NCBI RefSeq assembly: GCF_900240285.1
Contig: NZ_OESS01000001.1
Coordinates: forward strand, 372,001-436,000
From: Halobacillus sp. Marseille-P3879
Lineage (GTDB): Bacteria; Bacillota; Bacilli; Bacillales; Halobacillaceae
Direction: 5' to 3'
DNA length: 64,000 nucleotides
Below, in pieces: positions 10,156-53,322 of the stretch. Below the pieces are notes generated by a model, which did no database searches, was not told the DNA's origin, and was given only the letters and a program-made list of their open reading frames with translations. Each line of letters opens with the position of its first letter. The stretch's first letter is position 1. The translations under genes were made by a program, and so were the position numbers.

Positions 10156-11865
10156 ATGAAAAAAATTTTTTCATATGCCTTAGCATACAAATCGTCAGCC
10201 ATTATTGCTCTGTTGTTAATGTTAATTGAACTGGCGGTGGAACTTGTACAGCCTTTGCTGATGGCTCATATAATTGATGAAGGAATTATCAAAGAGAATT
10301 ACACGGTTGTATCTATATGGGGAGGAGTGCTGATCGGGCTGTCTTTGCTGGCTTTTACCGCTGGTATAACGAACTCCTTTTTTGCAGCTAACGTAAGCCA
10401 GGGTGTAGGCTTTGACCTGCGCCGGGACTTATTTAAGAAAGTACAAGCTTTTACAAATGAGAACTTCCAATCGTATTCTACACCGAATTTAGTCACTAGA
10501 ATGACAAACGATGTGATCCAGATTCAAAACTTAGTTCTCATGCTGATGAGAATTGCGTTGCGAGCTCCATTATTTATTGTGTTTGCTTTAGTTATGGCTT
10601 TCACTGTCAATGTGACATTAGCACTCATCCTTGTAGCAGCCGTTCCTGTTCTAGGTGGGTTTCTATTTTGGATTCTGCTGAAAGGGGTCAAGCTTTTTAA
10701 AGGAGTTCAGTCCCGTCTTGATGGGGTGAACACGGTCATTCGTGAGAACCTGTCTGGTATACGTTTAATAAAAGGTTTTAATAGAGGGGATTATGAAGAG
10801 GAACGCTTTCAGGAGGTAAATACCTCACTGACGGTAAAAAATAAACGAGCCTTATGGCTGATGGAAGTAGCTATGCCCGTCATTATGCTGGGAATGAATA
10901 TTGTTATTCTTGTCCTCCTTTTTACAGGAGCTGTCCAGCTTAATATGGGGGGAGCTCAAGCGGGTGAAGTAGTTGCTGTTATTAATTATGCGACACGGAT
11001 TATGTTTACTTTTTCTATATTTTCTTTTTTAATAATGGTATTTTCCCGCGGAAACGCCTCTGCCAATCGCATCAGCGAAGTGTTGGAGGAACAGACTCCG
11101 TCATTTCTTGCAGCTGAAGCAGGCAGAGACCTGAATGTTTCAGGAAATGTTACCTTTGAAAATGTAGCGTTCTATCGCGAACATTCGGAGGTCTTAAAAG
11201 ATATATCGTTTAGAGTAAAGGCAGGAGAAACTGTAGGCATATTAGGAGAGACAGGGTCTGGCAAAACGTCTCTTCTTCACTTGCTGCCTCGCCTGGTAGA
11301 GAAAAACAAAGGCTCCATTCTATTTGATGAGATAGACATCGAACGTATTAACATTAAAAGCCTGCGCCGGCAAATCAGTCTTGTTCCTCAAGACATTCAT
11401 CTATTTTCCGGAAGTGTGAAAGAAAATATTGCCTGGGGAAAAGAACACGCCGATGAACAGGAAATTATTGAAGCAGCTAAACAGGCGGAGATTCATTCTT
11501 TTATTACTTCTTTGCCAAATGGCTATGAAACAATTCTTGGACAGAAAGGTGTAACTTTTTCAGGAGGGCAGAAGCAGCGTCTCTCCATTGCCAGAGCGCT
11601 TGTTCGAGATCCTAAGATTTTAATCCTTGATGATAGTACGAGTGCCCTGGATGCTCATACGGAGGCAAGACTATTACAGACGTTAAAACAGCGGAATTGT
11701 ACCATTTTTATGGTTGCCCAAAAGATCAGCTCACTGCGAGCCGCGGACCAGATTTTAGTTATACAAAAGGGGAGTTTACTTGCAAAGGGAGATCATCACT
11801 ATCTGCTTTCTTCAAGTCCCTATTACCGACAGGTTTATCAATCTCAGCAAGAGGAAGTGATGTAA
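10156..11865 (+). CDS. ABC exporter half-transporter, degenerate-site subunit (YfiB-like)
   Basis: 569 residues: about six membrane segments (residues 1-310) followed by an ATPase domain. Walker A is GETGSGKTS and the signature is FSGGQKQR, both canonical, but Walker B reads ILILDDSTS, with Asp where the catalytic Glu should be. That is the hallmark of the degenerate half of a heterodimeric type IV exporter. Start ATG 10156 has GTGGAGGAC upstream. The stop codon shares one base with the next ATG (TAATG), so both halves are made together. Such pairs (YfiBC, BmrCD, LmrCD) export drugs or peptides; substrate unknown. Confidence 0.9.
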   Translation: MKKIFSYALAYKSSAIIALLLMLIELAVELVQPLLMAHIIDEGIIKENYTVVSIWGGVLIGLSLLAFTAGITNSFFAANVSQGVGFDLRRDLFKKVQAFTNENFQSYSTPNLVTRMTNDVIQIQNLVLMLMRIALRAPLFIVFALVMAFTVNVTLALILVAAVPVLGGFLFWILLKGVKLFKGVQSRLDGVNTVIRENLSGIRLIKGFNRGDYEEERFQEVNTSLTVKNKRALWLMEVAMPVIMLGMNIVILVLLFTGAVQLNMGGAQAGEVVAVINYATRIMFTFSIFSFLIMVFSRGNASANRISEVLEEQTPSFLAAEAGRDLNVSGNVTFENVAFYREHSEVLKDISFRVKAGETVGILGETGSGKTSLLHLLPRLVEKNKGSILFDEIDIERINIKSLRRQISLVPQDIHLFSGSVKENIAWGKEHADEQEIIEAAKQAEIHSFITSLPNGYETILGQKGVTFSGGQKQRLSIARALVRDPKILILDDSTSALDAHTEARLLQTLKQRNCTIFMVAQKISSLRAADQILVIQKGSLLAKGDHHYLLSSSPYYRQVYQSQQEEVM

Positions 11866-13688
11866 TGGCTGACAGTAAATCAAGCAATCGACCGGTCATT
11901 CAACGTCATCACCATGGGATTGGGACAGCCCCGCCTAAAGTTGAGAACATGAAGTCAACGTTGAAACGAATTTGGAGTTACATGTATGAGGAGAAAGGTA
12001 AGTTTAACCTTGTTCTAGCCATAATTGTGCTAAGCTCTGCGTTATCTCTTTTAGGACCTTATTTACTGGGTGCAGCCGTGGATAAAGTGATTGCTGAACG
12101 GAATGCAGGAACATTATGGATGATGCTGAGCCTTTTATTTGGTGTATATGTGTTTCATTCTCTATTTCTCTGGCTTCAAAATTATTGGATGATCACTATT
12201 TCTCAAAATACGGTTTATAAAATGCGTCGTCATTTGTTTTCCCATTTGCAGCGGCTCCCTATATTATTCTTCCAAAAGCGCCAGCAGGGAGAACTAATGA
12301 GCCGTCTGACGAATGACATGGAAAATGTAAGCAGGACTTTGAATACGGCAGTCGTTCAATTTGTAACAAGTGTCCTCACGATTCTCGGTACGCTTGTGAT
12401 TATGTTTTGGCTCAGTCCGCTCCTTACATTATTGACTATTACGATCGTTCCTGTAATGTATTTCGGAATGAAATGGATTACAAAGCGGACTGGTAAGTAT
12501 TTTAAAGAGCAGCAGAAACATTTAGGAGATGTGAATGGGTATGTAGAGGAAATGTTTTCAGGGCAAACGATTATTTCTATGTTTTCACGGGAAGAACGGG
12601 TGATTAAAGATTTTGAACGAAAGAATGAAGCCTTAAAAAAATCTGGCTACTGGGCTCAAACCTATTCAGGATTTATTCCTAAACTAATGAACATGCTTAA
12701 TAATATAAGCTTTGCGATCATTGTAGGGGCCGGAGGATTGCTTGCATTAAATGAAAGCATTTCTATAGGAATTATCGTGACGTTCACAACTTATTCCAGG
12801 CAGTTTACCCGTCCGCTTAATGATCTGGCGAACCAATACAATATGATCCTCTCTGCTGTAGCCGGAGCAGAGCGGGTTTTTCAAATCATTGACGAAAATG
12901 AAGAAAAGCAGGATGAAAGAAACGCTGAAAATATAAAGGAAATTAAAGGTGATATAAAATTTCGCTCCGTCCATTTTTCGTATGAGGATGAAGAAGAGAC
13001 GTTAACCGACATTAACTTTCACGCAGCATCTGGAGAAACTATTGCGTTAGTTGGGCCTACAGGGGCTGGAAAGACAACAATTATTTCATTGCTTTCCCGC
13101 TTTTATGAAATTGATGAAGGGACTATTCTCATCGATGGAAAAGAAATTAATACGATTACCAGGGATAGTTTAAGGAGTCAAATGGGCGTTGTCCTGCAGG
13201 ATTCGACCATGTTCCATACTACAATTAGAGAAAACTTGAGGTATGGGCGCCTGCATGCAACAGATGAAGAAGTTGAGAAAGCAGCTAAAGCGGCTCACGC
13301 TCATGAATTTATTACACAGCTTCCTAATGGATATGATACAGTTCTTGATTCTGACGGAGGAGGAGTAAGTCACGGGCAGAGACAGCTGCTTTCCATTGCC
13401 CGGGCCATGCTTGCAGATCCGGCTTTACTTATTCTAGACGAAGCGACTAGCAGTATTGATACTGTTACTGAAATAAAAATTAACGATGCTCTTGCCAGGC
13501 TTATGAAAGGCAGAACCAGTTTTGTTATTGCTCACCGGCTCAATACCATTCGTGCAGCAGATCAAATATTAGTGCTTCAGCATGGAGAGATTATAGAGCA
13601 TGGGGATCATAAGGAACTGTTAGAACAAGGAGGGTTTTATTCCGAATTAGTCAGAGCCCAGCAAGCTGAAAGCCAGGCATCTGTATAA
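11865..13688 (+). CDS. ABC exporter half-transporter, catalytic subunit (YfiC-like)
   Basis: 607 residues: His-rich N-terminal tail (QRHHHGIG), six membrane segments, then an ATPase domain with Walker A GPTGAGKTT and an intact Walker B LLILDEATSSID including the catalytic Glu. Its signature is altered, VSHGQRQ instead of LSGGQ. Together with the upstream subunit this gives one complete ATP site (this Walker A/Glu with the partner's SGGQ) and one degenerate site (partner's Walker A/Asp with this SHGQ), the classic asymmetric arrangement. Located in the membrane; exports an unknown compound. Confidence 0.9.
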   Translation: MADSKSSNRPVIQRHHHGIGTAPPKVENMKSTLKRIWSYMYEEKGKFNLVLAIIVLSSALSLLGPYLLGAAVDKVIAERNAGTLWMMLSLLFGVYVFHSLFLWLQNYWMITISQNTVYKMRRHLFSHLQRLPILFFQKRQQGELMSRLTNDMENVSRTLNTAVVQFVTSVLTILGTLVIMFWLSPLLTLLTITIVPVMYFGMKWITKRTGKYFKEQQKHLGDVNGYVEEMFSGQTIISMFSREERVIKDFERKNEALKKSGYWAQTYSGFIPKLMNMLNNISFAIIVGAGGLLALNESISIGIIVTFTTYSRQFTRPLNDLANQYNMILSAVAGAERVFQIIDENEEKQDERNAENIKEIKGDIKFRSVHFSYEDEEETLTDINFHAASGETIALVGPTGAGKTTIISLLSRFYEIDEGTILIDGKEINTITRDSLRSQMGVVLQDSTMFHTTIRENLRYGRLHATDEEVEKAAKAAHAHEFITQLPNGYDTVLDSDGGGVSHGQRQLLSIARAMLADPALLILDEATSSIDTVTEIKINDALARLMKGRTSFVIAHRLNTIRAADQILVLQHGEIIEHGDHKELLEQGGFYSELVRAQQAESQASV

Positions 13689-44821: not shown

Positions 44822-46234
44822 CTACATAAAGAAGGAGAGGGCAAAATAACCTGCAGCAGCAGCGCCAGCAGCTAACAGGGCAGGCTTTAGTTTAAACTTG
44901 GCGTATTCAATAGTATTTAAGTTTAAAATACCAGCTGATGTATTTGTGTCGTCACTAAGCGGGGAAGAGAAGGCTCCAAATGTCCCGCTTGCAAATACGG
45001 CTCCAATCGTAATAGGAAGAGAGCTTCCCGCAGTGACAGCGATCGATAAAGCCACGGGCATTAGAATTCCCCATGTACCCCAGGCCGAGCCAATAAAGTA
45101 AGATAGGCCGCAGCCAAGTACAAATATAATCACAGCAACATAATTCCCAGGGATCCAGTCAAACCATTCAGAGATTGTATCAGCAAATTCGAGTGCTTCT
45201 GTTCCTTTACTAAGCCCCCAAACCATAGCGAGCAGTAAAATGACGTTCATCATATCATTTCCACCGTCGATAAGACCGTCCATCATTCGTTTTAAATGTT
45301 CTTTCTTAAATTTTAAGTAAACAACGAACCAGACAATAGTTACAACGACAGCCAGGACCATAGCATCTAACACGCCTTCATTAATGAGAGCTCCAAACCC
45401 TGATTTCCCTTCCTCAATTCCGATGGCATACATAAAAACGAAGGTGAGGACGATAACGCTGAACAATGGGATGATTAAGTTCCACGGCTTAGCCGGCAAA
45501 TCACGCATAACGGCGGGGTGACAGTCTTCCCATTGATCGTCCTCTTGTTCTTTTTTCTCTTCGGGAGTTTTTTCTTTATCGTTTGCAGGCTTTTTACCCT
45601 TATGGAAGAAACTTAAATAAAAGCCTAGTATTAACATGGCAAAGGCAAAGAAGTTATACGGAATACTTTGGAGGAAAAGAGTGTAGGCGTCTCCTTCTGT
45701 ATCAGCCTGGTGAAGCGATAAATCTACTACAGAGGTCATATAGCCTACAAAAGCTGTAGCGACTGGAATTAAAACGACCAGGGGGGTAGCTGTCGTCTCA
45801 ATGACAAAAGCAAGCTCCTGCTTTGCCATCGGCACCTTCTTACGCATGGCTTTCATCACGGGACCGATTGTCACGATACGAAAGCTTGGTGCGGCAAATG
45901 TGCCCACAGATGAAATCCAGGTAAGAATGAATGCCCCACGTTTATTTTCAATTCTTTCCGTTGCAGCTTTAACAAAGCCTTTAATACCACCGGACATGCG
46001 AACTAACCCGATTAAAGCAGAGAAGGCATACAAGAATATGATAATCTTTAAATTACTTTCATCCGAGAGGCCTTCCATAATGAACTGGAGGGTCTTGATC
46101 ATTCCATTCAGCCAATGAGGATCGACCAAATAACCAGCCACGACAACCCCGAATAGTAAACTGGGTATAACCTGTTTTGTCCATATTGCAGCCGCTATGA
46201 CGACAATAAAAGGAATGACCGATACAAAGTCCAT
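44822..46234 (-). CDS. Na+/H+ antiporter, NhaC family
   Basis: 470 residues from ATG 46234 (GAGGTGG upstream). About eleven to twelve membrane helices. Family features: SALIGLVRMSGGIKGF, SSVGTFAAPSFRIVTIGPVM, VIETTATPLVVLIPVATAF and a C-terminal SYFIGSAWGTWGILMPVALS with FGAFSSPLSDDTNTSAGI. A hydrophilic loop rich in Lys and Glu lies mid-protein. It probably expels sodium in exchange for protons, useful in a halophile; exchange of organic ions, as in some NhaC relatives, is possible. Confidence 0.88.
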   Translation of the reverse strand: MDFVSVIPFIVVIAAAIWTKQVIPSLLFGVVVAGYLVDPHWLNGMIKTLQFIMEGLSDESNLKIIIFLYAFSALIGLVRMSGGIKGFVKAATERIENKRGAFILTWISSVGTFAAPSFRIVTIGPVMKAMRKKVPMAKQELAFVIETTATPLVVLIPVATAFVGYMTSVVDLSLHQADTEGDAYTLFLQSIPYNFFAFAMLILGFYLSFFHKGKKPANDKEKTPEEKKEQEDDQWEDCHPAVMRDLPAKPWNLIIPLFSVIVLTFVFMYAIGIEEGKSGFGALINEGVLDAMVLAVVVTIVWFVVYLKFKKEHLKRMMDGLIDGGNDMMNVILLLAMVWGLSKGTEALEFADTISEWFDWIPGNYVAVIIFVLGCGLSYFIGSAWGTWGILMPVALSIAVTAGSSLPITIGAVFASGTFGAFSSPLSDDTNTSAGILNLNTIEYAKFKLKPALLAAGAAAAGYFALSFFM

Positions 46235-46368
46235 GCTCGCCACCTCTTCCTATAGCTCTTTTACTTCATTAGCTTGAGTGAAGGCGGGAGATAGTATGCA
46301 TCAGAATGAGAAAAATGCAGTAAATGCTTTTTAATAACAGTGATTTTTAAATTTTTTCTGTAAAGGGG

Positions 46369-46397
46369 TTGTAAAACGCTTTCATAGTATTTATACT
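46369..46397 (+). promoter_or_regulatory. Promoter of the sugar-acid/RuMP operon
   Basis: TTGTAA, 17 nt, TATACT, followed at once by the palindromic operators. A weak cre-like sequence overlaps the -35 region. Confidence 0.6.
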
Positions 46398-46399
46398 GA

Positions 46400-46430
46400 A
46401 CTAAATCGGTTTACTAAACCGGTTTAGTAA
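46400..46430. promoter_or_regulatory. Tandem LacI-family operators
   Basis: A perfect 20-bp palindrome TTACTAAACCGGTTTAGTAA (46411-46430) with a partial second copy ACTAAATCGGTTTAC overlapping its left side, centres 13 bp apart. The CG centre is typical for LacI-family sites. Position just after the -10 fits repression of the gene that follows by its own product. Confidence 0.8.
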
Positions 46431-46461
46431 AAAGTTTGATACAGATTTGAGGTTGCAGAAA

Positions 46462-47487
46462 ATGAAAACAGTCACAATGGCAGATGTTGCTGAGCAAGCA
46501 AATGTCTCTAAAAGCACCGTTTCACAATATTTAAATAAACGTTATGACTATATGGGTGAAAAAACAAAGCTGAGAATCGAAGAAGCGATTAGAGAGCTTG
46601 GCTACCAGCCTAATATCGTAGCGAGAAGCCTGAAGCAGAAATCAACGAAAACCATTGGAGTTATTGTAGCAAACATTCTCCACACTTTCTCTACTGAAGT
46701 AAGCAGGGCAATTGAAGATGTATGTCACCTGCAAGATTTTCACACGATCATTTGTAATGCCGATGATGACCCTGCTAAAGAAAAAAAGTACATTGAAATG
46801 TTGAGGGCGAAGCAGGTTGATGGATTGATTATCTTTCCGACTGGGAATAATCGGGAACTGTATAAAAGGATGCTTGACGAAAAATATCCGGTTGTGTTTT
46901 TAGACCGTTCGGTAGCAGATATTCCTGTTTCCTCAGTCATGCTGGAGAATGAAAAGGCCTCGGAGCTTGCTGTTCATCATTTTTATGAGAAAGGACACAA
47001 GCTCATTGCAATGATTACTTCGTCGATTGCGGAGAGTGTGTCACCTAGGGTAGAAAGAATGAAAGGATTTAAGAAAGCGCTTCAGTCACTAGGTCTCACA
47101 GAAAGAGAAGAGTATGTAAAAAGTGTAGAACCTGACGAGGTAAGAAGATCCCTTCATGAGATGTGGCAGAACTCAGAACCTCCGGAAGCTATACTTGCAG
47201 GAAATGATCGAGTATTAAAGGAAATTCTAACGTTTGTTAAAGAAAAAAATCTATCAATACCAGGTGATCTATCTATTATAGGAGTCGATGATGTTCCTTA
47301 TGCGGACTTTTATAATCCGCCTTTAACTACGGTGGCCCAGCCTACCTTTGAAATGGGAAAAACAGCGGCTGAAGTATTGCTCGACAAAATTAAAAAAAAG
47401 CAGCCGGAAGATAATCGTCCTGATGATCGGTTTGAACCAAAATTAATCGTTAGGGATTCGGTAGCGGATAGAGGAGGAGTGCAATAA
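46462..47487 (+). CDS. LacI-family transcriptional regulator (KdgR-like)
   Basis: 341 residues. HTH: MADVAEQANVSKSTVSQYLNKRYDYMGEKTKLRIEEAI with hinge LGYQPNIVARSLK; then a periplasmic-binding-like sensor domain (TIGVIVANILHTFSTEV; LAGNDRVLKEIL; GVDDVPYADFYNPPLTTVAQP). Tyr replaces the common 'R' in the recognition segment. It probably represses the operon that it heads, using the palindromes at 46400-46430, and releases with a sugar acid or phosphorylated derivative. ATG 46462 is preferred to TTG 46447. Shares one base with the next gene (TAATG). Confidence 0.9.
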   Translation: MKTVTMADVAEQANVSKSTVSQYLNKRYDYMGEKTKLRIEEAIRELGYQPNIVARSLKQKSTKTIGVIVANILHTFSTEVSRAIEDVCHLQDFHTIICNADDDPAKEKKYIEMLRAKQVDGLIIFPTGNNRELYKRMLDEKYPVVFLDRSVADIPVSSVMLENEKASELAVHHFYEKGHKLIAMITSSIAESVSPRVERMKGFKKALQSLGLTEREEYVKSVEPDEVRRSLHEMWQNSEPPEAILAGNDRVLKEILTFVKEKNLSIPGDLSIIGVDDVPYADFYNPPLTTVAQPTFEMGKTAAEVLLDKIKKKQPEDNRPDDRFEPKLIVRDSVADRGGVQ

Positions 47488-48443
47488 TGTCTACAGATGT
47501 AATCACGATAGGGGATGCGATGGTCACCTTCAACCCTTCCCACCATGGCCCGATGCGCTTTGCTTCGTCATTTGAACGTAAGGCAGGAGGAGCAGAATTT
47601 AACTTTGCTCTAGGCTGTGCCCGGCTTGGGTTACAAACGCGATGGATCAGTCGTTTAGGAAATGATGAATTTGGTAAATACATTCGGAACTATGCCCGTG
47701 GAGAGGGAATTGACGTAAGAGATGTCAAACTGCTGGACGGTTACCCGACTTCGTTAAATTTTAAGGAAATCAGCGAAGACGGAAGCGGCAGAACCTTTTA
47801 TTATCGAGAGAACTCGCCGACACAAGCATTAACAGAGAAATCTCTAACCGAGGAAACGTTTAGTAATTGTAAGCTTCTTCATATAAGCGGGGTTTTCGCC
47901 GCGATTGACCCGGTTAAAAACATTCCCTTGTTAAAGAAAGCGGCAATCATGGCTAAGAATGCCGGCGCTCTCGTCTCATTTGATCCTAATATCCGTTTAA
48001 AGCTTTGGGATAAAGCAGAGGCCAAAGAAAAACTCACGGAACTTTTGAATTATGCAGATGTACTTCTGACAGGGGATGAAGAAGCTGATTTGTTATTTGA
48101 TACCCATGAAACAAGAGAGGTAATAAAGATTTGCCAATCTTATGGTATATCTTCGGCAGCTATTAAAAAAGGAGAAAAAGGTGCAGTCGCCTTCCACGAG
48201 GAGGAAGTTATTGAGACTGCTGCAGTTCCGCCGAGCAAAGTTGTCGATACTGTAGGGGCCGGGGATGGGTTTGATGCAGGGTTTATTTATGGTCTGATTC
48301 ATCAATGGCCGCTTGGCCGCATCCTGAATATAGCCAATACTATTGGTTCAATGGTAGTTAGCGTGTCCGGAGACAATGAAGGTTTACCTGAACTTGAGGA
48401 TGTTCTGGTGAAGCTTGGAGAAAAAGAGTTAATCGAGAGGTGA
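47487..48443 (+). CDS. kdgK: PfkB-family sugar kinase, probable 2-keto-3-deoxygluconate kinase
   Basis: 318 residues. ITIGDAMVTFNP, GGAEFNFALGCARLG, and the catalytic ATP-site motif DTVGAGDGFDAGFIYGL identify PfkB kinases; overall layout resembles KdgK. It would phosphorylate 2-keto-3-deoxygluconate (KDG) to KDPG for the aldolase three genes on. Other ketose or sugar-acid substrates remain possible. Confidence 0.85.
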   Translation: MSTDVITIGDAMVTFNPSHHGPMRFASSFERKAGGAEFNFALGCARLGLQTRWISRLGNDEFGKYIRNYARGEGIDVRDVKLLDGYPTSLNFKEISEDGSGRTFYYRENSPTQALTEKSLTEETFSNCKLLHISGVFAAIDPVKNIPLLKKAAIMAKNAGALVSFDPNIRLKLWDKAEAKEKLTELLNYADVLLTGDEEADLLFDTHETREVIKICQSYGISSAAIKKGEKGAVAFHEEEVIETAAVPPSKVVDTVGAGDGFDAGFIYGLIHQWPLGRILNIANTIGSMVVSVSGDNEGLPELEDVLVKLGEKELIER

Positions 48444-48447
48444 AACT

Positions 48448-49095
48448 ATGAATCTTCAACTTGCGCTTGATCGTTTGTCTGAAGAAGAATGTCTGACGAT
48501 AATAAGTGAAACAAATGAATATGTGGACTGGATTGAAATTGGAACGGGTGTAATTAAAGAGTATGGAATGTCGATTGTTCGCAAAGTTAGAAAGCGTTAT
48601 CCTGAATCCATTATCGTAGCTGATATGAAAACATGTGATGCAGGAGCTCATGAAGCTTCCCAGGTATTTGAAGCCGGGGCAGATATTACGACAGTTATGG
48701 CTTTTGCAGCTGATCAAACGATTGAAGATATGGTTGCGAAAGCAAATGAGTATAACGGTCGGATTATGGTTGATCTGCTCAATGTAGAGGATTCAGAAAG
48801 AGTAAGAGAGCTCAGCAGATTAGGAGTTGACCTGGTGAGTCTCCACTTTGGCAAGGATATGCAGCAGAAAGGGGAGATGGATCAGTCTTTATTTGGACTA
48901 ATCAGTGATTTCCCTCAGCTGGAGGTAGCGGTAGCAGGAGGGATAAACCTTCGCTCGTTACCTGATGTACTTTCCCATCAACCTGATACGGTAATAGTTG
49001 GCAGTGCTATCACGAAAAAGGCAGACCGTGAAGAAGCCGCTAGACAAATTAAGGAGGTTATCAAGTCCTATGAAACAAACGATACACACCGTTAG
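48448..49095 (+). CDS. hxlA: 3-hexulose-6-phosphate synthase
   Basis: 215 residues, orotidine-decarboxylase-like barrel. NLQLALDRLSEEE, VADMKTCDAGAHEASQVFEAGADITTVM and VAVAGGINLRSLPDVL match B. subtilis HxlA. The D-x-K-T-x-D-A-G form favours hexulose-phosphate synthase over the related 3-keto-L-gulonate-6-phosphate decarboxylase (UlaD). It joins formaldehyde and ribulose 5-phosphate, or runs in reverse to release formaldehyde. Overlaps hxlB by 26 nt. Confidence 0.85.
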   Translation: MNLQLALDRLSEEECLTIISETNEYVDWIEIGTGVIKEYGMSIVRKVRKRYPESIIVADMKTCDAGAHEASQVFEAGADITTVMAFAADQTIEDMVAKANEYNGRIMVDLLNVEDSERVRELSRLGVDLVSLHFGKDMQQKGEMDQSLFGLISDFPQLEVAVAGGINLRSLPDVLSHQPDTVIVGSAITKKADREEAARQIKEVIKSYETNDTHR

Positions 49096-49624
49096 TTATG
49101 AAGTGAGCCAAGTTCTGGCAGGCATAGATGAAAAACAAGCTGAGCGAATTGCTCTATCGATTGAAGATGCAGGAAGAATTTTTGTCACAGGTGAAGGCCG
49201 TTCCGGCTTAATGGGAAAAGCCTTTGCGATGAGATTAATGCATGCAGGCTATGAAGTGTATGTAACAGGAGAAACCATTACTCCAAGCATTCAAGAAGGT
49301 GACTTATTACTGGCGATTTCTGGTTCTGGTTCAACATCATCAATTTGTCAATTCGCTGAAAAAGCGAAGAAGCAAGGTGCTGTAATCGCTTCTGTCACTA
49401 CGAACAGAGAATCACGTCTGGCAGAAGTCAGTGATTACGTGCTTGTGGTGCCAGCAGCAACTAAGAAACGTCTGGCAGAAGAACCTGAAACGATTCAGCC
49501 TCTTGGCAATCAGTTCGATCAGTCGCTTCATTTACTGCTGGACGCCATCATTATTTATACAGTCAATCAATCCATGAAAACAAACAATGAAGAAATGACA
49601 GGTCGTCACGCGAATCTTGAATAG
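49070..49624 (+). CDS. hxlB: 6-phospho-3-hexuloisomerase (SIS domain)
   Basis: 184 residues, one SIS domain: VTGEGRSGLMGKAFAMRLMHAGYEVYVTGETITPSIQEGDLLLAISGSGSTSS is the PHI signature region (broken into GEGRSGLMGKAFAMRL and ISGSGSTSS elements), and PLGNQFDQSLHLLLDAI is the C-terminal mark. It interconverts hexulose 6-phosphate and fructose 6-phosphate. AAGGAGG lies 12 nt upstream, a rather long gap, within hxlA. Confidence 0.87.
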   Translation: MKQTIHTVSYEVSQVLAGIDEKQAERIALSIEDAGRIFVTGEGRSGLMGKAFAMRLMHAGYEVYVTGETITPSIQEGDLLLAISGSGSTSSICQFAEKAKKQGAVIASVTTNRESRLAEVSDYVLVVPAATKKRLAEEPETIQPLGNQFDQSLHLLLDAIIIYTVNQSMKTNNEEMTGRHANLE

Positions 49625-49637
49625 GAGGAAGAGAAGC

Positions 49638-50255
49638 ATGCAGAAAATATTAAATCAAGCAAAAGTCATCCCGGTGGTCCGGAAAGCTAATGAAGATAAT
49701 GTGGTCCCTATAGCTGAAGCTTTATACGCTGGAGGTATCTCGGTTATTGAAATCACAGCTGAAACTCCTAAAGTTGAAGAATTAATTAGAAAAGTTAGAA
49801 ACAGTTCCTGCGATATTCTGGTAGGAGCTGGAACCGTGCTAGATGCTGAGACAGCAAGAGCCGTGATTACGGCAGGTGCTCAGTTTCTTGTCTCTCCAAC
49901 ATTCAATCAGGACGCCATTAAAATGGCCAACCGTTACGGAATTCCTTTTATGAGTGGTGCGATGACACCGACTGAGGTGTTAACGGCTTTTGAGGCTGGA
50001 GCCGCTATGGTTAAAGTGTTTCCAGCAGGCTCAATGGGACCAGATTATATTAAGAATATTCGCGGTCCTCTGCCGCATATCCCGATAATGGCAACAGGGG
50101 GGATCCACCTGGACAATATGGTTGATTACTTGAAAGCAGGAGCTCAAGCAGTAGGTGTTGGAAGTCAGCTTGTGGCAGCTGATCAATTAGAGTCTGCCGA
50201 AGATTATCAGAAGTTAACGAAAGAAGCAGAGCGTTACATTCAAAAGTCCCTTTAA
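49638..50255 (+). CDS. kdgA: 2-dehydro-3-deoxy-phosphogluconate (KDPG/KHG) aldolase
   Basis: 205 residues, class I aldolase barrel. VIPVVRK, EITAETPKVEELI, VGAGTVLDAETA, FLVSPTFN and the Schiff-base lysine in MVKVFPAGSMGPDYIKNIRGP, then IMATGGIHLDNM. It splits KDPG to pyruvate and glyceraldehyde 3-phosphate. ATG 49638 follows TAGGAGGAAG. Confidence 0.92.
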   Translation: MQKILNQAKVIPVVRKANEDNVVPIAEALYAGGISVIEITAETPKVEELIRKVRNSSCDILVGAGTVLDAETARAVITAGAQFLVSPTFNQDAIKMANRYGIPFMSGAMTPTEVLTAFEAGAAMVKVFPAGSMGPDYIKNIRGPLPHIPIMATGGIHLDNMVDYLKAGAQAVGVGSQLVAADQLESAEDYQKLTKEAERYIQKSL

Positions 50256-50269
50256 TTTTTATCATTTCA

Positions 50270-50283
50270 TGAAAGCGCGTTCA
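50270..50283. promoter_or_regulatory. Candidate cre (CcpA) site between kdgA and dctP
   Basis: TGAAAGCGCGTTCA matches the catabolite-response consensus TGWAANCGNTNWCA at all but one position and is itself nearly palindromic. CcpA binding here could block transcription into the transporter genes when good carbon is present. Confidence 0.5.
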
Positions 50284-50304
50284 ATAATAGAGGAGGGAAT
50301 ATTC

Positions 50305-51327
50305 ATGAAAAACGCAGCATGGGCTATCACCATCTTTGTAATTCTCGTCCTTTCTGGCTGCAGCAATGCTGCAGGGGGCAAAGACGATGAGGACAAAATT
50401 AAGATTATTGCTGCCCATAACCAGACGTCGCCTGAAAATCCGTATCAATACGGAATGGAAGAATTTAAACGCGTGGCAGAGGAAGAATCTGACGGCAGGA
50501 TTGAAGTTGAAGTTCACGCCGGAACTCTCGGTACAAGTGAATCAGAGCTGGTAGAGAAGCTCAAGCTCGGAGGAGCTGACCTTGTACTCGTCTCTCCGGG
50601 GTTTATGTCTCAAACAGGAATCAGAGAGATTGATCTATTCGCTATGCCTTATATATTTGAAGATTATGAGCACTGGGAACAGGTAGTGGACGGTGAAGTA
50701 GGAGAAGAAGTGGCGCAGACTATCGAGGAAAAGTCAAATGGTGACTTTAAAATGATGGGATATTGGAGCGCGGGAGTGCGTCACTACTATGGCGGTAAGC
50801 CTTTGGAGTCAATCGATGATTTAAAAGGAATGAAATACCGTACCCAAACCTCCGGAGCAATTGCAGAATATTGGGAAGCTGCCGGGGCGGTGCCTACTAA
50901 CGTTTCGTGGGGAGAATTATATCAAGGTCTTCAGCAGGGTATAGTAGATTCGTCTGAGAACTCCTATCCTTATTTCGTACAGCAAAATCACCATAAGACG
51001 AAAAACGGGAAATATATTACCGAGACAGCCCACGACTATACAACGCGTTTCTTACTCATGAACGGTAATAAGTTTGAGGAGTATACCGAAGAGCAGCAGC
51101 AGATCGTACTAAAAGCAGCAAATGCCGCTGTTGAAGAAGAAAGAAAAGTGGATATGGAACAGGAGGAAGAGTACAAACAGCTTGCGATTGAAGAGGGAGC
51201 TGAGGTGAACGACATCGATCGGGAACCTTTTATTGAATTAGCTGAGCCATATCAAGAGAAAATGGCTGAGGAGATTGGGCCTAGTGCCGTGAACCTTTTA
51301 GAAGAAATAAGAAGTTTAAGAGATTAA
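50305..51327 (+). CDS. TRAP transporter solute-binding lipoprotein (DctP family)
   Basis: 340 residues with a lipoprotein signal and lipobox LSGC. DctP features: GTLGTSESELVEKLKLGGADLVLVSPGFM, the substrate-carboxylate arginine in MKYRTQTSGAIAEYWEAAGAVPTNVSWGELYQGLQQGIVDSSEN (key parts: GMKYRTQ, PTNVSWGELYQGLQQG, DSSENS). It should bind an organic or sugar acid outside the membrane and pass it to DctQM. Ligand by context a hexuronate, aldonate or KDG-like acid; this is inference. AGGAGGG precedes ATG 50305. Confidence 0.9.
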   Translation: MKNAAWAITIFVILVLSGCSNAAGGKDDEDKIKIIAAHNQTSPENPYQYGMEEFKRVAEEESDGRIEVEVHAGTLGTSESELVEKLKLGGADLVLVSPGFMSQTGIREIDLFAMPYIFEDYEHWEQVVDGEVGEEVAQTIEEKSNGDFKMMGYWSAGVRHYYGGKPLESIDDLKGMKYRTQTSGAIAEYWEAAGAVPTNVSWGELYQGLQQGIVDSSENSYPYFVQQNHHKTKNGKYITETAHDYTTRFLLMNGNKFEEYTEEQQQIVLKAANAAVEEERKVDMEQEEEYKQLAIEEGAEVNDIDREPFIELAEPYQEKMAEEIGPSAVNLLEEIRSLRD

Positions 51328-51360
51328 GGTGAAATTATCTTACAGAAGGAGGAGAGCGGC

Positions 51361-51837
51361 TTGTTTATAAAACTTCTGGAACGTACTCAATTGGCGTTAG
51401 GAATCCTGTTTCTTGTTATATTTTTCATTACGATTGTGATCCAGGTGTTGACGAGGTTTGTAGGAGTATCTGCGATTTGGACCGAAGAAGTGGCCACGTA
51501 TTCATTTATTTGGTCCGTCTTTATGGGTGCTGCTGTGATGGTGAATAAAAGAGATCATTTTCAATTTGATTTACTGCTGAATAAACTGAAGGGAAAAAAG
51601 AAAAAGTCTCTGTATTTATTCAATGATGTGATCCTGTTATTATTCAGTGCTGCATTACTGATATTAGGGATTATAGTGGTAGACAGCTTTTGGAACTTTA
51701 GGTGGGAATCACTCCCTGAAATGAAAATGGGGTACGTATGGCTGTCCATTCCTACTATGGCAGGCACTATGGTCATCTATACGATTGCTCATATGCTGAA
51801 TAATATAAAAACCTTTAACAGAGAGGAGTCAGCCTGA
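51361..51837 (+). CDS. TRAP transporter small permease (DctQ family)
   Basis: 158 residues, four membrane helices, starting at TTG 51361 with AAGGAGGAGAGCGG upstream. The WTEEVATYSFIWSVFMGAAVMVNKRDHFQFDLL region (conserved E-E and R-D-H-F elements) is typical DctQ. Forms the membrane complex with DctM, whose ATG overlaps its stop (TGATG). Confidence 0.9.
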   Translation: MFIKLLERTQLALGILFLVIFFITIVIQVLTRFVGVSAIWTEEVATYSFIWSVFMGAAVMVNKRDHFQFDLLLNKLKGKKKKSLYLFNDVILLLFSAALLILGIIVVDSFWNFRWESLPEMKMGYVWLSIPTMAGTMVIYTIAHMLNNIKTFNREESA

Positions 51838-53126
51838 TGATCGGTTTACTACTGCTTGGATTGTTTATATTGCTGATGGTAATTGGGATACCGATCGCTT
51901 TTGTGATTGGCATCGTTGCCCTGCTGGGTTTTATGAACATTCCTTACACACCTGAAGCACTGATGCCTGTTAAGATGTTGAATGGATTAGACTCCTTTGT
52001 ACTTTTATCTGTGCCTTTGTTTATACTAGCTGCCAATCTAATGAACAGTGGTCAGATCTCGCAGAAGCTGATCGACTTCGCTCTTTCAGTTGTAGGGCAT
52101 ATCAGAGGGGGATTAGCCCACGCAAACATTTTAGTTTCAATGTTATTTGCAGGGATTTCTGGTGCCGCACAGGCGGATACAGCCGGAGTAGGAAAAATCC
52201 TTATCCCCAATATGAAGAAGCAGGGATATGATAATGCCACAGCCGTGGGTGTAACCGCAGCTTCTTCAACTATCGGGGTAATTATTCCTCCGAGTATTCC
52301 CATGATTATTTTCGCAGGATTAACAAATGTTTCAGTCGGGGCGCTTTTTCTTGTAGGAATTATTCCTGGAGTACTGATAGGCGGAGGAATGATGGTTCTC
52401 ATTTATATTCTTGCTAAGAAACGGAAGTACCCGGTTTACCAGCGGGCCTCTTTAAGCAACTTTTTTAAACAGTTCCTTGATGTACTGCCGGCTCTTTTTA
52501 CTCCGATCATTTTAATTGGCGGAGTGGTATCGGGAATATTTACGGCAACGGAAGCAGCGGCTTTTGCTTCGATTTATACCGTTATTATTGGTATGTTCTA
52601 CTATAAGACATTGAAGATTAAGCATTTTCCTAAGATTCTGGTGGATACACTGACGCTCAGCTCGTTATCATTATTTGCGTTAGCAGCAGCAAATGCGCTG
52701 GGTGAATTGATGAGCTATTATCAATTAGCTCAATGGACCGAACAGTTTTTTGCCAGCTCAATTGACAGCAAATGGATCTTCCTGCTGATCATCATTGCTT
52801 TCTTCTTATTTGTAGGAACCTTTATGGATGCCATACCAGCCATGATTTTATTTGTGCCGGTAATATTACCAGTGGCTGAAACCTTTGGAGTCGATCCATT
52901 ATTATTAGGAATCATAACCATTATGACCCTTGCCATTGGCTTAGTAACACCGCCATATGGGTTATGTCTGCTGTTAGCAGCGAAAATTGGAAAGCTGCCC
53001 ATTGAACGGTCCTTTGGAGCGGTCATGCCCTATATAGCAATTGTACTCGTTGTACTCGCTGTCATATCTTTTATCCCGGGAGTAGCTTTCTATATTCCTG
53101 AGATGCTTAGTCCTGATATGTTTTAA
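51837..53126 (+). CDS. TRAP transporter large permease (DctM family)
   Basis: 429 residues, about twelve helices. SVPLFILAANLMNSG, AGISGAAQADTAGVGKILIP, TAASSTIGVIIPPSIPMIIFA, TATEAAAFASIY and ATPPYGL-type VTPPYGLCLLLAAKIG are DctM hallmarks. It drives sodium-coupled uptake of the acid bound by DctP. Last gene of the operon, followed by repeat copy E. Confidence 0.92.
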   Translation: MIGLLLLGLFILLMVIGIPIAFVIGIVALLGFMNIPYTPEALMPVKMLNGLDSFVLLSVPLFILAANLMNSGQISQKLIDFALSVVGHIRGGLAHANILVSMLFAGISGAAQADTAGVGKILIPNMKKQGYDNATAVGVTAASSTIGVIIPPSIPMIIFAGLTNVSVGALFLVGIIPGVLIGGGMMVLIYILAKKRKYPVYQRASLSNFFKQFLDVLPALFTPIILIGGVVSGIFTATEAAAFASIYTVIIGMFYYKTLKIKHFPKILVDTLTLSSLSLFALAAANALGELMSYYQLAQWTEQFFASSIDSKWIFLLIIIAFFLFVGTFMDAIPAMILFVPVILPVAETFGVDPLLLGIITIMTLAIGLVTPPYGLCLLLAAKIGKLPIERSFGAVMPYIAIVLVVLAVISFIPGVAFYIPEMLSPDMF

Positions 53127-53202
53127 ATTAAGCGGGATTGGGACACAAGTAACGCAGTGATGTCAAAAAACGACCATTCATATAAACGCAGATGATCCAC
53201 GG

Positions 53203-53315
53203 AAAGCGAAGCGTTTTGACGGAGCGATGGTGTGAATTCTCTTTAATATAAATAATCCGAACTGATTTCACCAAAATCGTTCGGATTATTTTATGCTTTA
53301 TTCAGTTTTGTCCCA
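53203..53315 (+). repeat. Dispersed palindromic repeat, copy E
   Basis: Best-preserved copy. Left flank AAGCGAAGCGTTTTGACGGA then GCGATGGTGTGAATTCTC; core 53247-53294 with ATAAATAATCCGAACTGATT and AAATCGTTCGGATTATTT arms; right flank TGCTTTATTCAGTTTTGTCC. It lies between convergent dctM and the epimerase gene. Confidence 0.88.
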
Positions 53316-53322
53316 ACTTCGC

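Follow-up and report, generated by a model that had tools for sequence, protein, structure and literature searches.

Genes of the hxlA and hxlB type, named for the hexulose-phosphate synthase (HPS) and phosphohexuloisomerase (PHI) of formaldehyde fixation, raise a question when they stand among genes for sugar-acid breakdown: do their products act on formaldehyde there, or on the acid itself? Such a locus lies in Halobacillus sp. Marseille-P3879, in a stretch of 64,000 nucleotides (contig NZ_OESS01000001.1, positions 372,001 to 436,000) that we call the window. Eight genes, all on the plus strand at 46447-53126, follow the order lacI-kinase-hxlA-hxlB-kdgA-dctP-dctQ-dctM, with gaps of at most 49 bp and several overlaps; the initial annotation had described this content, order and close packing correctly. 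It had also proposed that the imported acid releases formaldehyde, or that the HxlA-like enzyme acts as a decarboxylase or aldolase on a pathway intermediate. Our data support the second proposal through two residues of HxlA (Arg9 and Lys136), operons in which hxlAB replaces the reductase gene kguD, and the presence of rpiA in some related operons. We give a probability of about 70% to the reading that the operon breaks down imported 2-keto sugar acids, and that HxlB and HxlA turn 2-keto-6-phosphogluconate into D-ribulose-5-phosphate (Ru5P) and CO2.

HxlA proteins fall into two kinds. Related loci compared here are numbered with L and genomes with G (G000 is this genome). The loci hold 185 HxlAs, 148 of them distinct after removal of identical proteins only. 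Sugar-acid genes were counted as near when a gene for a keto-acid kinase, a tripartite ATP-independent periplasmic (TRAP) transporter, KguT, UxuA or an Ldh2 dehydrogenase lay on the same strand within 9 kb; this neighbourhood class varies with the length of the stretch (3.6 to 19 kb), and canonical loci had less room for other genes. In the alignment, all 118 distinct HxlAs beside sugar-acid genes have Arg9, and 116 of them have Lys at 136, the position of Arg139 in UlaD. Leu9 and Tyr136, the canonical type, occur in 24 distinct HxlAs, in whose stretches no sugar-acid genes were found. An hxlR-like gene lies within 1.5 kb of 17 of these 24, a lower bound because hxlR was searched with a single reference sequence. 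The six remaining HxlAs have neither pattern.

Three solved HPSs carry Leu or Glu at position 9 and Leu, Ile or Thr at the UlaD-139 position. UlaD is the decarboxylase of 3-keto-L-gulonate-6-phosphate, and an alignment on solved structures places Lys136 of the window HxlA on its Arg139. The comparison of the active site with HPS and UlaD, suggested by the initial annotation, gave a divided answer: seven residues are kept (E30, D59, K61, D64, D109, H133 and A163), but positions 9 and 136 are unlike those of every HPS compared. UlaD residues E112, R139 and T169 correspond to D, K and A in the window HxlA; D109 and A163 fit the HPS type, and Lys136 does not. Position 139 is also marked by the title of PDB entry 1xbx, the UlaD mutant E112D/R139V/T169A with D-ribulose-5-phosphate, and R139V or the combined changes presumably raise the HPS activity of UlaD. 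The window HxlB has GEGRS where solved PHIs carry GAGRS. GEGRS was found in 88 of 100 acid loci with HxlB called, and GAGRS in 18 of 20 Leu9/Tyr loci.

A quick tree search was made with 51 of the 148 distinct HxlAs and four PDB rows, keeping the columns of positions 9 and 136. Acid-operon HxlAs formed one side of a branch in this 55-row tree (Shimodaira-Hasegawa-like approximate likelihood ratio test, SH-aLRT, 98); within them, the kgu-type members (99) were separated from the TRAP/uxu-type members (98). Judged from these sequences, the window HxlA belongs to a clade apart from the formaldehyde-fixing HPSs. Identity alone does not split the two kinds: among the matches listed in 397 genomes of the order, identities to the window HxlA are at least 49% or 37-44%, with canonical and kgu-type copies occurring side by side in the lower range. 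Six genomes (G021, G142, G149, G352, G360 and G369) hold a canonical Tyr-type copy together with a second copy 58-64% identical to the window's, the residue of the second copy having been read for G021 only. An HxlA match was found in 29 of the 44 family genomes, at least 52% identical in 27; G012 has a canonical copy only, and the copy of G034 is of the kgu type.

The kgu-type operons bear on the substrate. Klebsiella and Enterobacter plasmids carry ptxS-kguE-kguK-kguD with a gene of the major facilitator superfamily before kguD, which is annotated as kguD in L186 and as ghrB in L187 and L201. KguD reduces 2-keto-6-phosphogluconate to 6-phosphogluconate, as described in PMC11678583. Five loci of the window's own taxonomic order (L178, L179, L182-L184) show lacI-kguE-kinase-kguT-hxlA-hxlB or an order close to it; L185, which belongs to a different order of the class, has a kgu-type hxlAB operon without a kguE call. 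Tetragenococcus and Lacticaseibacillus plasmids have a kguE-like gene, a permease gene, a kinase gene, hxlA, hxlB and kdgA; in L176, which comes from a different class of the phylum, kdgA, kguE, a kinase gene, hxlA and hxlB are present. Identity to a Klebsiella protein annotated as 2-ketogluconate kinase is 50-55% for the kinases of L176-L179 and L182-L185 and 43-45% for the lactobacillar ones; two kgu-type kinases that were compared are 37% identical to the KdgK of this genome's uxa cluster. No uronate genes were called in kgu-type operons with window-clade HxlA. A KguD-like protein (36%) is encoded divergently near the L183 operon, at a level of identity that fits the general 2-hydroxyacid dehydrogenase family. 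In terms of gene content, hxlAB takes the place of the reductase gene kguD in kgu-type operons, and the kgu-type HxlA set suggests 2-ketogluconate as the substrate. The window operon itself contains no kguE, KguK-group kinase gene, kguT or kguD.

The TIM-barrel protein KguE is encoded in both kguD-type and hxlAB-type operons (L130:1387-2184, L191:6001-6750 and L186:6007-6756). Its role may therefore not depend on the choice between reductase and decarboxylase. KguE-like TIM-barrel matches on L. salivarius and Lev. brevis plasmids were set aside, as they lie in other contexts without hxlAB.

Regulators and operators connect the two operon types. Upstream of the window lacI, TTTACTAAACCGGTTTAGTAAA at 46410-46431 is a perfect palindrome of 22 bp; the initial annotation was right about its perfection and gave its length as 20 bp. 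With up to three mismatches, 0.01 chance occurrences are expected in the window, and an overlapping second copy with three mismatches begins at 46397. The core, TAAAyCGrTTTA, stands before lacI in many relatives. The set of 80 related loci has 127 such sites in 1.14 Mb compared with one in a reversed-sequence control, and 56 of the 79 loci of at least 5 kb have the core. In the kgu-type loci it lies before kguE (L182-L184) or kguK (L185), and L182-L184 have it a second time, ahead of hxlA or hxlB. The LacI proteins of L182-L184 are 51-52% identical to that of the window, with near-identical recognition helices, and that of L185 is 45% identical. Compared with the Enterobacter kgu regulator, those of L178 and L179 reach 260 and 256 bits, versus 198 and 204 bits against the window LacI. 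L179 carries TTGGAACCGGTTCCAT, one base off the Enterobacter site; no site of the Enterobacter form was found in L178. PtxS is described as binding TGAAACCGGTTTCA and responding to 2-ketogluconate (PMC11678583). The window operator shares the core AAACCGGTTT with this published site, and the flanks differ. The predicted operator and the likeness of the LacI proteins tie TRAP-type and kgu-type operons together.

The 22-bp operator, with up to three mismatches, recurs once in the genome, at G000:C9:1068490-1068524. There it precedes genes for an Ldh2-type dehydrogenase, a second DctPQM, a Zn-dehydrogenase, UxuA and UxuB. The second solute-binding protein (SBP) is closest to 4pc9 and 4pcd (309 bits), with far lower scores against sialic-acid SBPs (157 bits) and the H. 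influenzae L-gulonate SBP 4pbq (156 bits); the Ldh2-type protein matches YiaK at 108 bits. The same arm was found in all eight genomes taken from the ten other family genomes with this dehydrogenase. Seven of nine stretches (this genome counted) have the operator before the arm; the L205 stretch is cut inside lacI, so the site is not readable there. The Ldh2 dehydrogenase occurs in 11 of the 44 family genomes, and all 11 belong to the group of 27 whose HxlA is at least 52% identical (hypergeometric 0.0017, uncorrected for relatedness). The other 16 have such an HxlA and no Ldh2 dehydrogenase; the window operon is therefore probably able to function by itself. On contig C7, a further cluster, uxaB-uxaC-uxaA-kdgA-kdgK, has its own kinase and aldolase. 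The earlier remark that no uronate isomerase, dehydrogenase or dehydratase is present is true of the operon but not of the genome, which encodes two dehydrogenases as well as UxuB and the dehydratase UxuA in a second operon behind the same operator, and has uxaC elsewhere.

2-Keto-6-phosphogluconate is fructose-6-phosphate with C1 as a carboxylate. PHI shifts the ketone of fructose-6-phosphate between C2 and C3, and HPS joins C1 to Ru5P or parts it from Ru5P. We propose that the TRAP importer would take up the acid, most likely 2-keto-D-gluconate and/or 2-keto-3-deoxygluconate (KDG), and that one PfkB kinase would phosphorylate both 2-keto acids at C6. The phosphorylated KDG (KDPG), which has no hydroxyl at C3, would be split by KdgA into pyruvate and glyceraldehyde-3-phosphate. 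HxlB would isomerise 2-keto-6-phosphogluconate to 3-keto-6-phosphogluconate, as PHI does with fructose-6-phosphate, and HxlA would decarboxylate the product to Ru5P and CO2. This last step would be HPS chemistry reversed, with CO2 as the leaving group in place of formaldehyde, and the positively charged residues 9 and 136 would favour a carboxylate. Conversion of the 3-keto acid to Ru5P and CO2 is the second half of the 6-phosphogluconate dehydrogenase reaction, with the redox step omitted. RpiA, encoded in some relatives' operons, would pass Ru5P on. Because KDPG cannot form the 3-keto isomer and needs KdgA, kdgA would accompany hxlAB and yet be dispensable. The second operon may feed the route from aldonates: 2-ketogluconate would arise when the Ldh2-type dehydrogenase oxidises D-mannonate or D-gluconate at C2, and UxuA would make KDG from mannonate. 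What we observe is the gene content and its conservation, the operator common to both operons, the residue signature, the clades and the replacement of kguD by hxlAB in related operons; from these we infer the substrates, the direction of reaction, the binding of the regulator and every enzymatic step.

A single kinase for KDG and 2-ketogluconate would have precedent by analogy, since a 2-ketogluconate kinase is described as using 2-ketogluconate and KDG with kcat/KM of 16,770 and 7,370 per s per M, and KDG kinases as accepting 2-ketogluconate too (PMC6651773). The best model for the window kinase is the KDG kinase NF040938, at 197 bits against a cut-off of 400. This cut-off does not discriminate here because the uxa-cluster KdgK also scores just 193 bits. 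Residues Y105, R107, R170 and D260 align with Y103, R105, R167 and D251 of the T. thermophilus KDG kinase, and the position of its Y89 is Asn in the window kinase. Assignment of the window kinase as KguK itself was ruled out by its 39% identity to Klebsiella KguK. The window KdgA exceeds the TIGR01182 cut-off (198 versus 156 bits), and the window LacI matches family models below cut-off.

Beyond the window, it seems somewhat more probable than not, with less assurance than for the operon itself, that this is a widespread redox-neutral route from 2-ketogluconate to ribulose-5-phosphate and CO2 that uses no NAD(P)H. Bacillaceae would carry it in TRAP-type operons, and Bacilli together with at least one further class of the phylum in operons of the kgu type; HxlB would be a RuMP enzyme turned into a 2-keto-6-phosphogluconate 2,3-isomerase, and HxlA one turned into a 3-keto-6-phosphogluconate decarboxylase. 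We found no report joining hxlAB with the catabolism of 2-ketogluconate or KDG among the open-access titles and abstracts listed, a search that does not establish absence from print.

The search for this gene order in relatives, also suggested earlier, found the operon to be widespread. The 80 loci came from one scan with a HxlA query and have 7-kb flanks where available; they include close relatives, and some genomes appear twice. Genes were called by best BLAST hit in contiguous same-strand runs. These runs contain dctM in 74 loci, hxlB in 67, lacI in 65, a window-like kinase gene in 64 and kdgA in 59; genes for the Ldh2-type dehydrogenase (20), the Zn-dehydrogenase (16) and UxuA (14) are less frequent. 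The usual core is kinase, hxlA, hxlB and transporter, and kdgA is optional, 21 of the 80 stretches holding none. The gene rpiA occurs in 23 of the 80 stretches, 13 times on the same strand (12 inside the run). Its presence in operons fits D-ribulose-5-phosphate as the product and disfavours a route to L-xylulose-5-phosphate. In L075, from Planococcus, genes for 6-phosphogluconate dehydrogenase (gnd) and RpiA lie downstream of the TRAP genes (11521-13662).

Canonical loci have other neighbours. References for zwf, gnd and the S-(hydroxymethyl)glutathione dehydrogenase gene frmA were taken from two plasmids. With these, zwf turned up next to seven canonical loci (L137, L143-L147 and L156, from six genomes, as L145 and L156 are from the same one) and next to none of the acid-type loci tested. 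The gnd gene neighbours two loci, the canonical L137 and the acid-type L075, and frmA was seen solely in its own canonical locus, L188, with none at the acid loci tested. No hxlR was found in the window operon, where lacI stands instead. From these neighbours, canonical hxlAB tends to accompany a pentose-phosphate oxidation loop, and rpiA goes with some acid-type operons. Across L202:47-6198, L137, L143-L147 and L156, canonical hxlAB of Bacilli is often beside zwf and in two cases also gnd, an arrangement that is likely to be a dissimilatory ribulose monophosphate (RuMP) loop.

Three further arrangements were seen among the relatives. A Cupin_2 protein of about 92-106 amino acids is encoded after dctM in 23 of the 80 operons (for example L045:11152-11427) and not in the window. 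In Psychrobacillus (L109:5382-7639 and L110) the order is hxlB-Ldh2 dehydrogenase-hxlA, with a window-type operator before hxlB; this is perhaps a stripped-down form of the proposed pathway. L103 (JAGGQZ010000013.1), labelled Chryseobacterium, carries a Bacillaceae-type uxu/hxlA operon and is probably a mislabelled or contaminated contig.

Several observations weigh against the proposed conversion of 2-keto-6-phosphogluconate by HxlB and HxlA. HxlA and HxlB exceed the NCBIfam equivalog-domain cut-offs for HPS (TIGR03128, 269 versus 200 bits) and PHI (TIGR03127, 238 versus 160 bits), and a structure search with the confident AlphaFold model of HxlA (predicted local distance difference test score, pLDDT, 92.6) gave two HPSs as the closest folds. 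Two acid-operon HxlAs have no Lys136, L091 with Ile and L181 with Val, and L181 itself sits in a kguE/kguK operon. Among acid-type HxlBs, three keep GAGRS (L181, L191 and L192), eight have Thr or Asn at the Glu position of GEGRS, and one has Asp. The operator core was not found in 23 of the 79 loci of at least 5 kb, nor was the operator found in the 745 bp upstream of lacI in L210. In 10 of the 23 cases rpiA is on the other strand, and the gnd gene of L075 is also compatible with a dissimilatory RuMP cycle. As to the substrate, the window kinase is 39% identical to Klebsiella KguK and 36% to the uxa-cluster KdgK, and the window LacI is 27% identical to the Enterobacter kgu regulator. The solved TRAP SBPs nearest to the window DctP are uronate-binding proteins and are not known to bind 2-ketogluconate (ligands were considered for 4x8r, 4xfe, 4pf8 and 4pc9). 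Because its kinase, LacI and transporter are not orthologues of KguK, PtxS and KguT, the window operon could act on a neighbour of 2-ketogluconate.

These family scores and folds would suit an ordinary HPS and PHI whose task is to supply Ru5P, to drain it or to detoxify formaldehyde, and whose link to acid catabolism is co-transcription and nothing more. The window hxlA is also the sole copy in this genome (4.17 Mb, 9 contigs), and gnd lies in one related operon. We nevertheless regard this explanation as unlikely: HxlA residues partition by gene neighbourhood, six genomes hold a Tyr-type canonical copy in addition to a window-like one, and zwf is next to canonical copies only.

Lysine at the R139 position could instead point to an L-series enzyme, a 3-keto-L-gulonate-6-phosphate decarboxylase that forms L-xylulose-5-phosphate as in ula and sgb operons, with L-gulonate entering through the second TRAP transporter. 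The genes of the second arm are similar to those for L-gulonate in H. influenzae, and in yia and sgb operons TRAP, an Ldh2 dehydrogenase, a kinase and a decarboxylase of the orotidine monophosphate decarboxylase (OMPDC) family are paired. The D-series enzyme RpiA in some operons, the D-series kgu context and the retained HxlB-type isomerase make such a route improbable. D109 and A163 are HPS-like, whereas UlaD has E112 and T169 (wild-type residues taken from mutant titles), and no UlaE/UlaF-type epimerase was recognised, although no search was aimed at one. The window HxlA scores below the UlaD and SgbH cut-offs (PRK13306, 125 versus 250 bits; PRK13305, 106 versus 294 bits).

Least probable of all, and very doubtful, is that the imported acid is O-methylated (for example 4-O-methyl-glucuronate), that its breakdown frees methanol or formaldehyde and that an ordinary HPS and PHI fix the formaldehyde: the cut-off scores, UxuA and UxuB in the second arm and the uronate-like relatives of the TRAP SBP would agree with this, but HxlA is not of the hxlR-linked type, Arg9/Lys136 is absent from HPSs beside hxlR or frmA, zwf and frmA lie beside canonical loci only, hxlAB of the window's clade occurs in kgu-type 2-ketogluconate operons without recognised uronate genes, 21 of 80 stretches have no kdgA, and no demethylase or methanol dehydrogenase was seen among the annotated genes (flanking reading frames being partly annotated and the genome not searched), so the formaldehyde-releasing acid of the initial annotation is disfavoured.

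The proposed conversion of 2-keto-6-phosphogluconate to Ru5P and CO2 can be compared with known systems. Like the window, the kgu operon (ptxS-kguE-kguK-kguT-kguD) combines a LacI-type regulator, an importer and a PfkB keto-acid kinase that makes a 2-keto-6-phospho acid, and kgu-like operons of some Bacilli share hxlAB of the window's clade. Unlike kgu, the window operon has TRAP where kgu has KguT and hxlAB where kgu has kguD, it lacks kguE, and its kinase falls outside the KguK group. The ula, sgb and yia operons serve the use of L-ascorbate and 2,3-diketo-L-gulonate. Like our proposal, they have an OMPDC-suprafamily enzyme that decarboxylates a 3-keto-hexonate-6-phosphate, and yia shares TRAP, a kinase and an Ldh2 dehydrogenase with this genome; unlike the window operon, they have an L-series substrate and epimerases and are not known to include a SIS isomerase or RpiA. 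The hxlAB of the RuMP pathway encodes homologous enzymes with the same 2-keto/3-keto and C-C chemistry and the same D-arabino stereochemistry, but its C1 unit is formaldehyde, hxlR is often present, and the Bacillota copies seen have Leu9/Tyr.

The L-gulonate pathway of H. influenzae is described as GulPQM, GulD, UxuB, UxuA, KdgK and KdgA (PMC5788505). The Zn-dehydrogenase, UxuB and UxuA of the second operon, together with the kinase and KdgA, match this pathway, which as published includes neither HxlAB nor an Ldh2 dehydrogenase. The L-threonate pathway, LtnD-OtnI-OtnK-OtnC, is described with the same logic of C2 oxidation, movement of the keto group from C2 to C3, phosphorylation and decarboxylation; it differs in its C4 acids, its other enzyme families and its kinase step after the isomerase (PMC12540250).

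The features of the operon are listed in Table 1. The promoter before lacI that was noted earlier is present as a hexamer pair; with 18 of that class in the window versus 14.8 expected from shuffles, its position is what supports it. A cre-like site (catabolite-responsive element), reported before dctP, is likewise there but statistically weak: its one-mismatch class has 11 matches in the window versus 4.6 expected, and 5 of 100 shuffles reach that count. Between dctM and the next gene, the roughly 190 bp at 53128-53320 have seemingly imperfect inverted ends by eye (AAGCGGGATTGGGACA and TGTCCCAACTTCGCTT) and are perhaps a small mobile repeat. Upstream of lacI, a divergent gene at 44822-46243 encodes a Na+/H+ antiporter family protein (PF03553), and similar proteins are encoded near the related operons L032 and L035.

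Table 1. Features of the sugar-acid operon, in positions of the window
Feature	Position	Strand	Remark
Promoter-like pair TTGTAA-17-TATACT	46369..46397	+	position only
Two overlapping LacI-type candidate operators, 13 bp apart	46397..46431	none	second is a perfect palindrome
lacI, LacI-family regulator	46447..47487	+	family match; ATG at 46462 behind GAGG is the likelier start
kinase, PfkB, KDG/2-ketogluconate (2-keto sugar acid) kinase group	47487..48443	+	1-bp overlap with lacI
hxlA, HxlA-like OMPDC-suprafamily enzyme, Arg9 and Lys136	48448..49095	+	4-bp gap after kinase
hxlB, HxlB-like SIS isomerase, GEGRS motif	49070..49624	+	26-bp overlap with hxlA
kdgA, KDPG/KHG (2-keto-4-hydroxyglutarate) aldolase	49638..50255	+	13 bp after hxlB
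cre-like site, one mismatch	50270..50283	none	before dctP; class not clearly above chance
dctP, TRAP solute-binding protein	50305..51327	+	49 bp after kdgA
dctQ, TRAP small permease	51361..51837	+	33 bp after dctP
dctM, TRAP large permease	51837..53126	+	1-bp overlap with dctQ

The names hxlA and hxlB are taken as evidence of formaldehyde metabolism, and the genes are used as parts in engineered methylotrophs. If our reading is true, many proteins annotated as formaldehyde-fixing HPS and PHI would be sugar-acid enzymes, and the sugar-acid HxlA clade would be recognisable by Arg9, Lys136 and its gene neighbours. The route would supply the missing part of 2-ketogluconate breakdown in bacteria that have a kgu-like operon without kguD, and it would provide a cofactor-free entry into the pentose phosphates from uronates and aldonates. 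The two kinds of HxlA would then be a natural experiment in how an active site switches its leaving group from formaldehyde to CO2.

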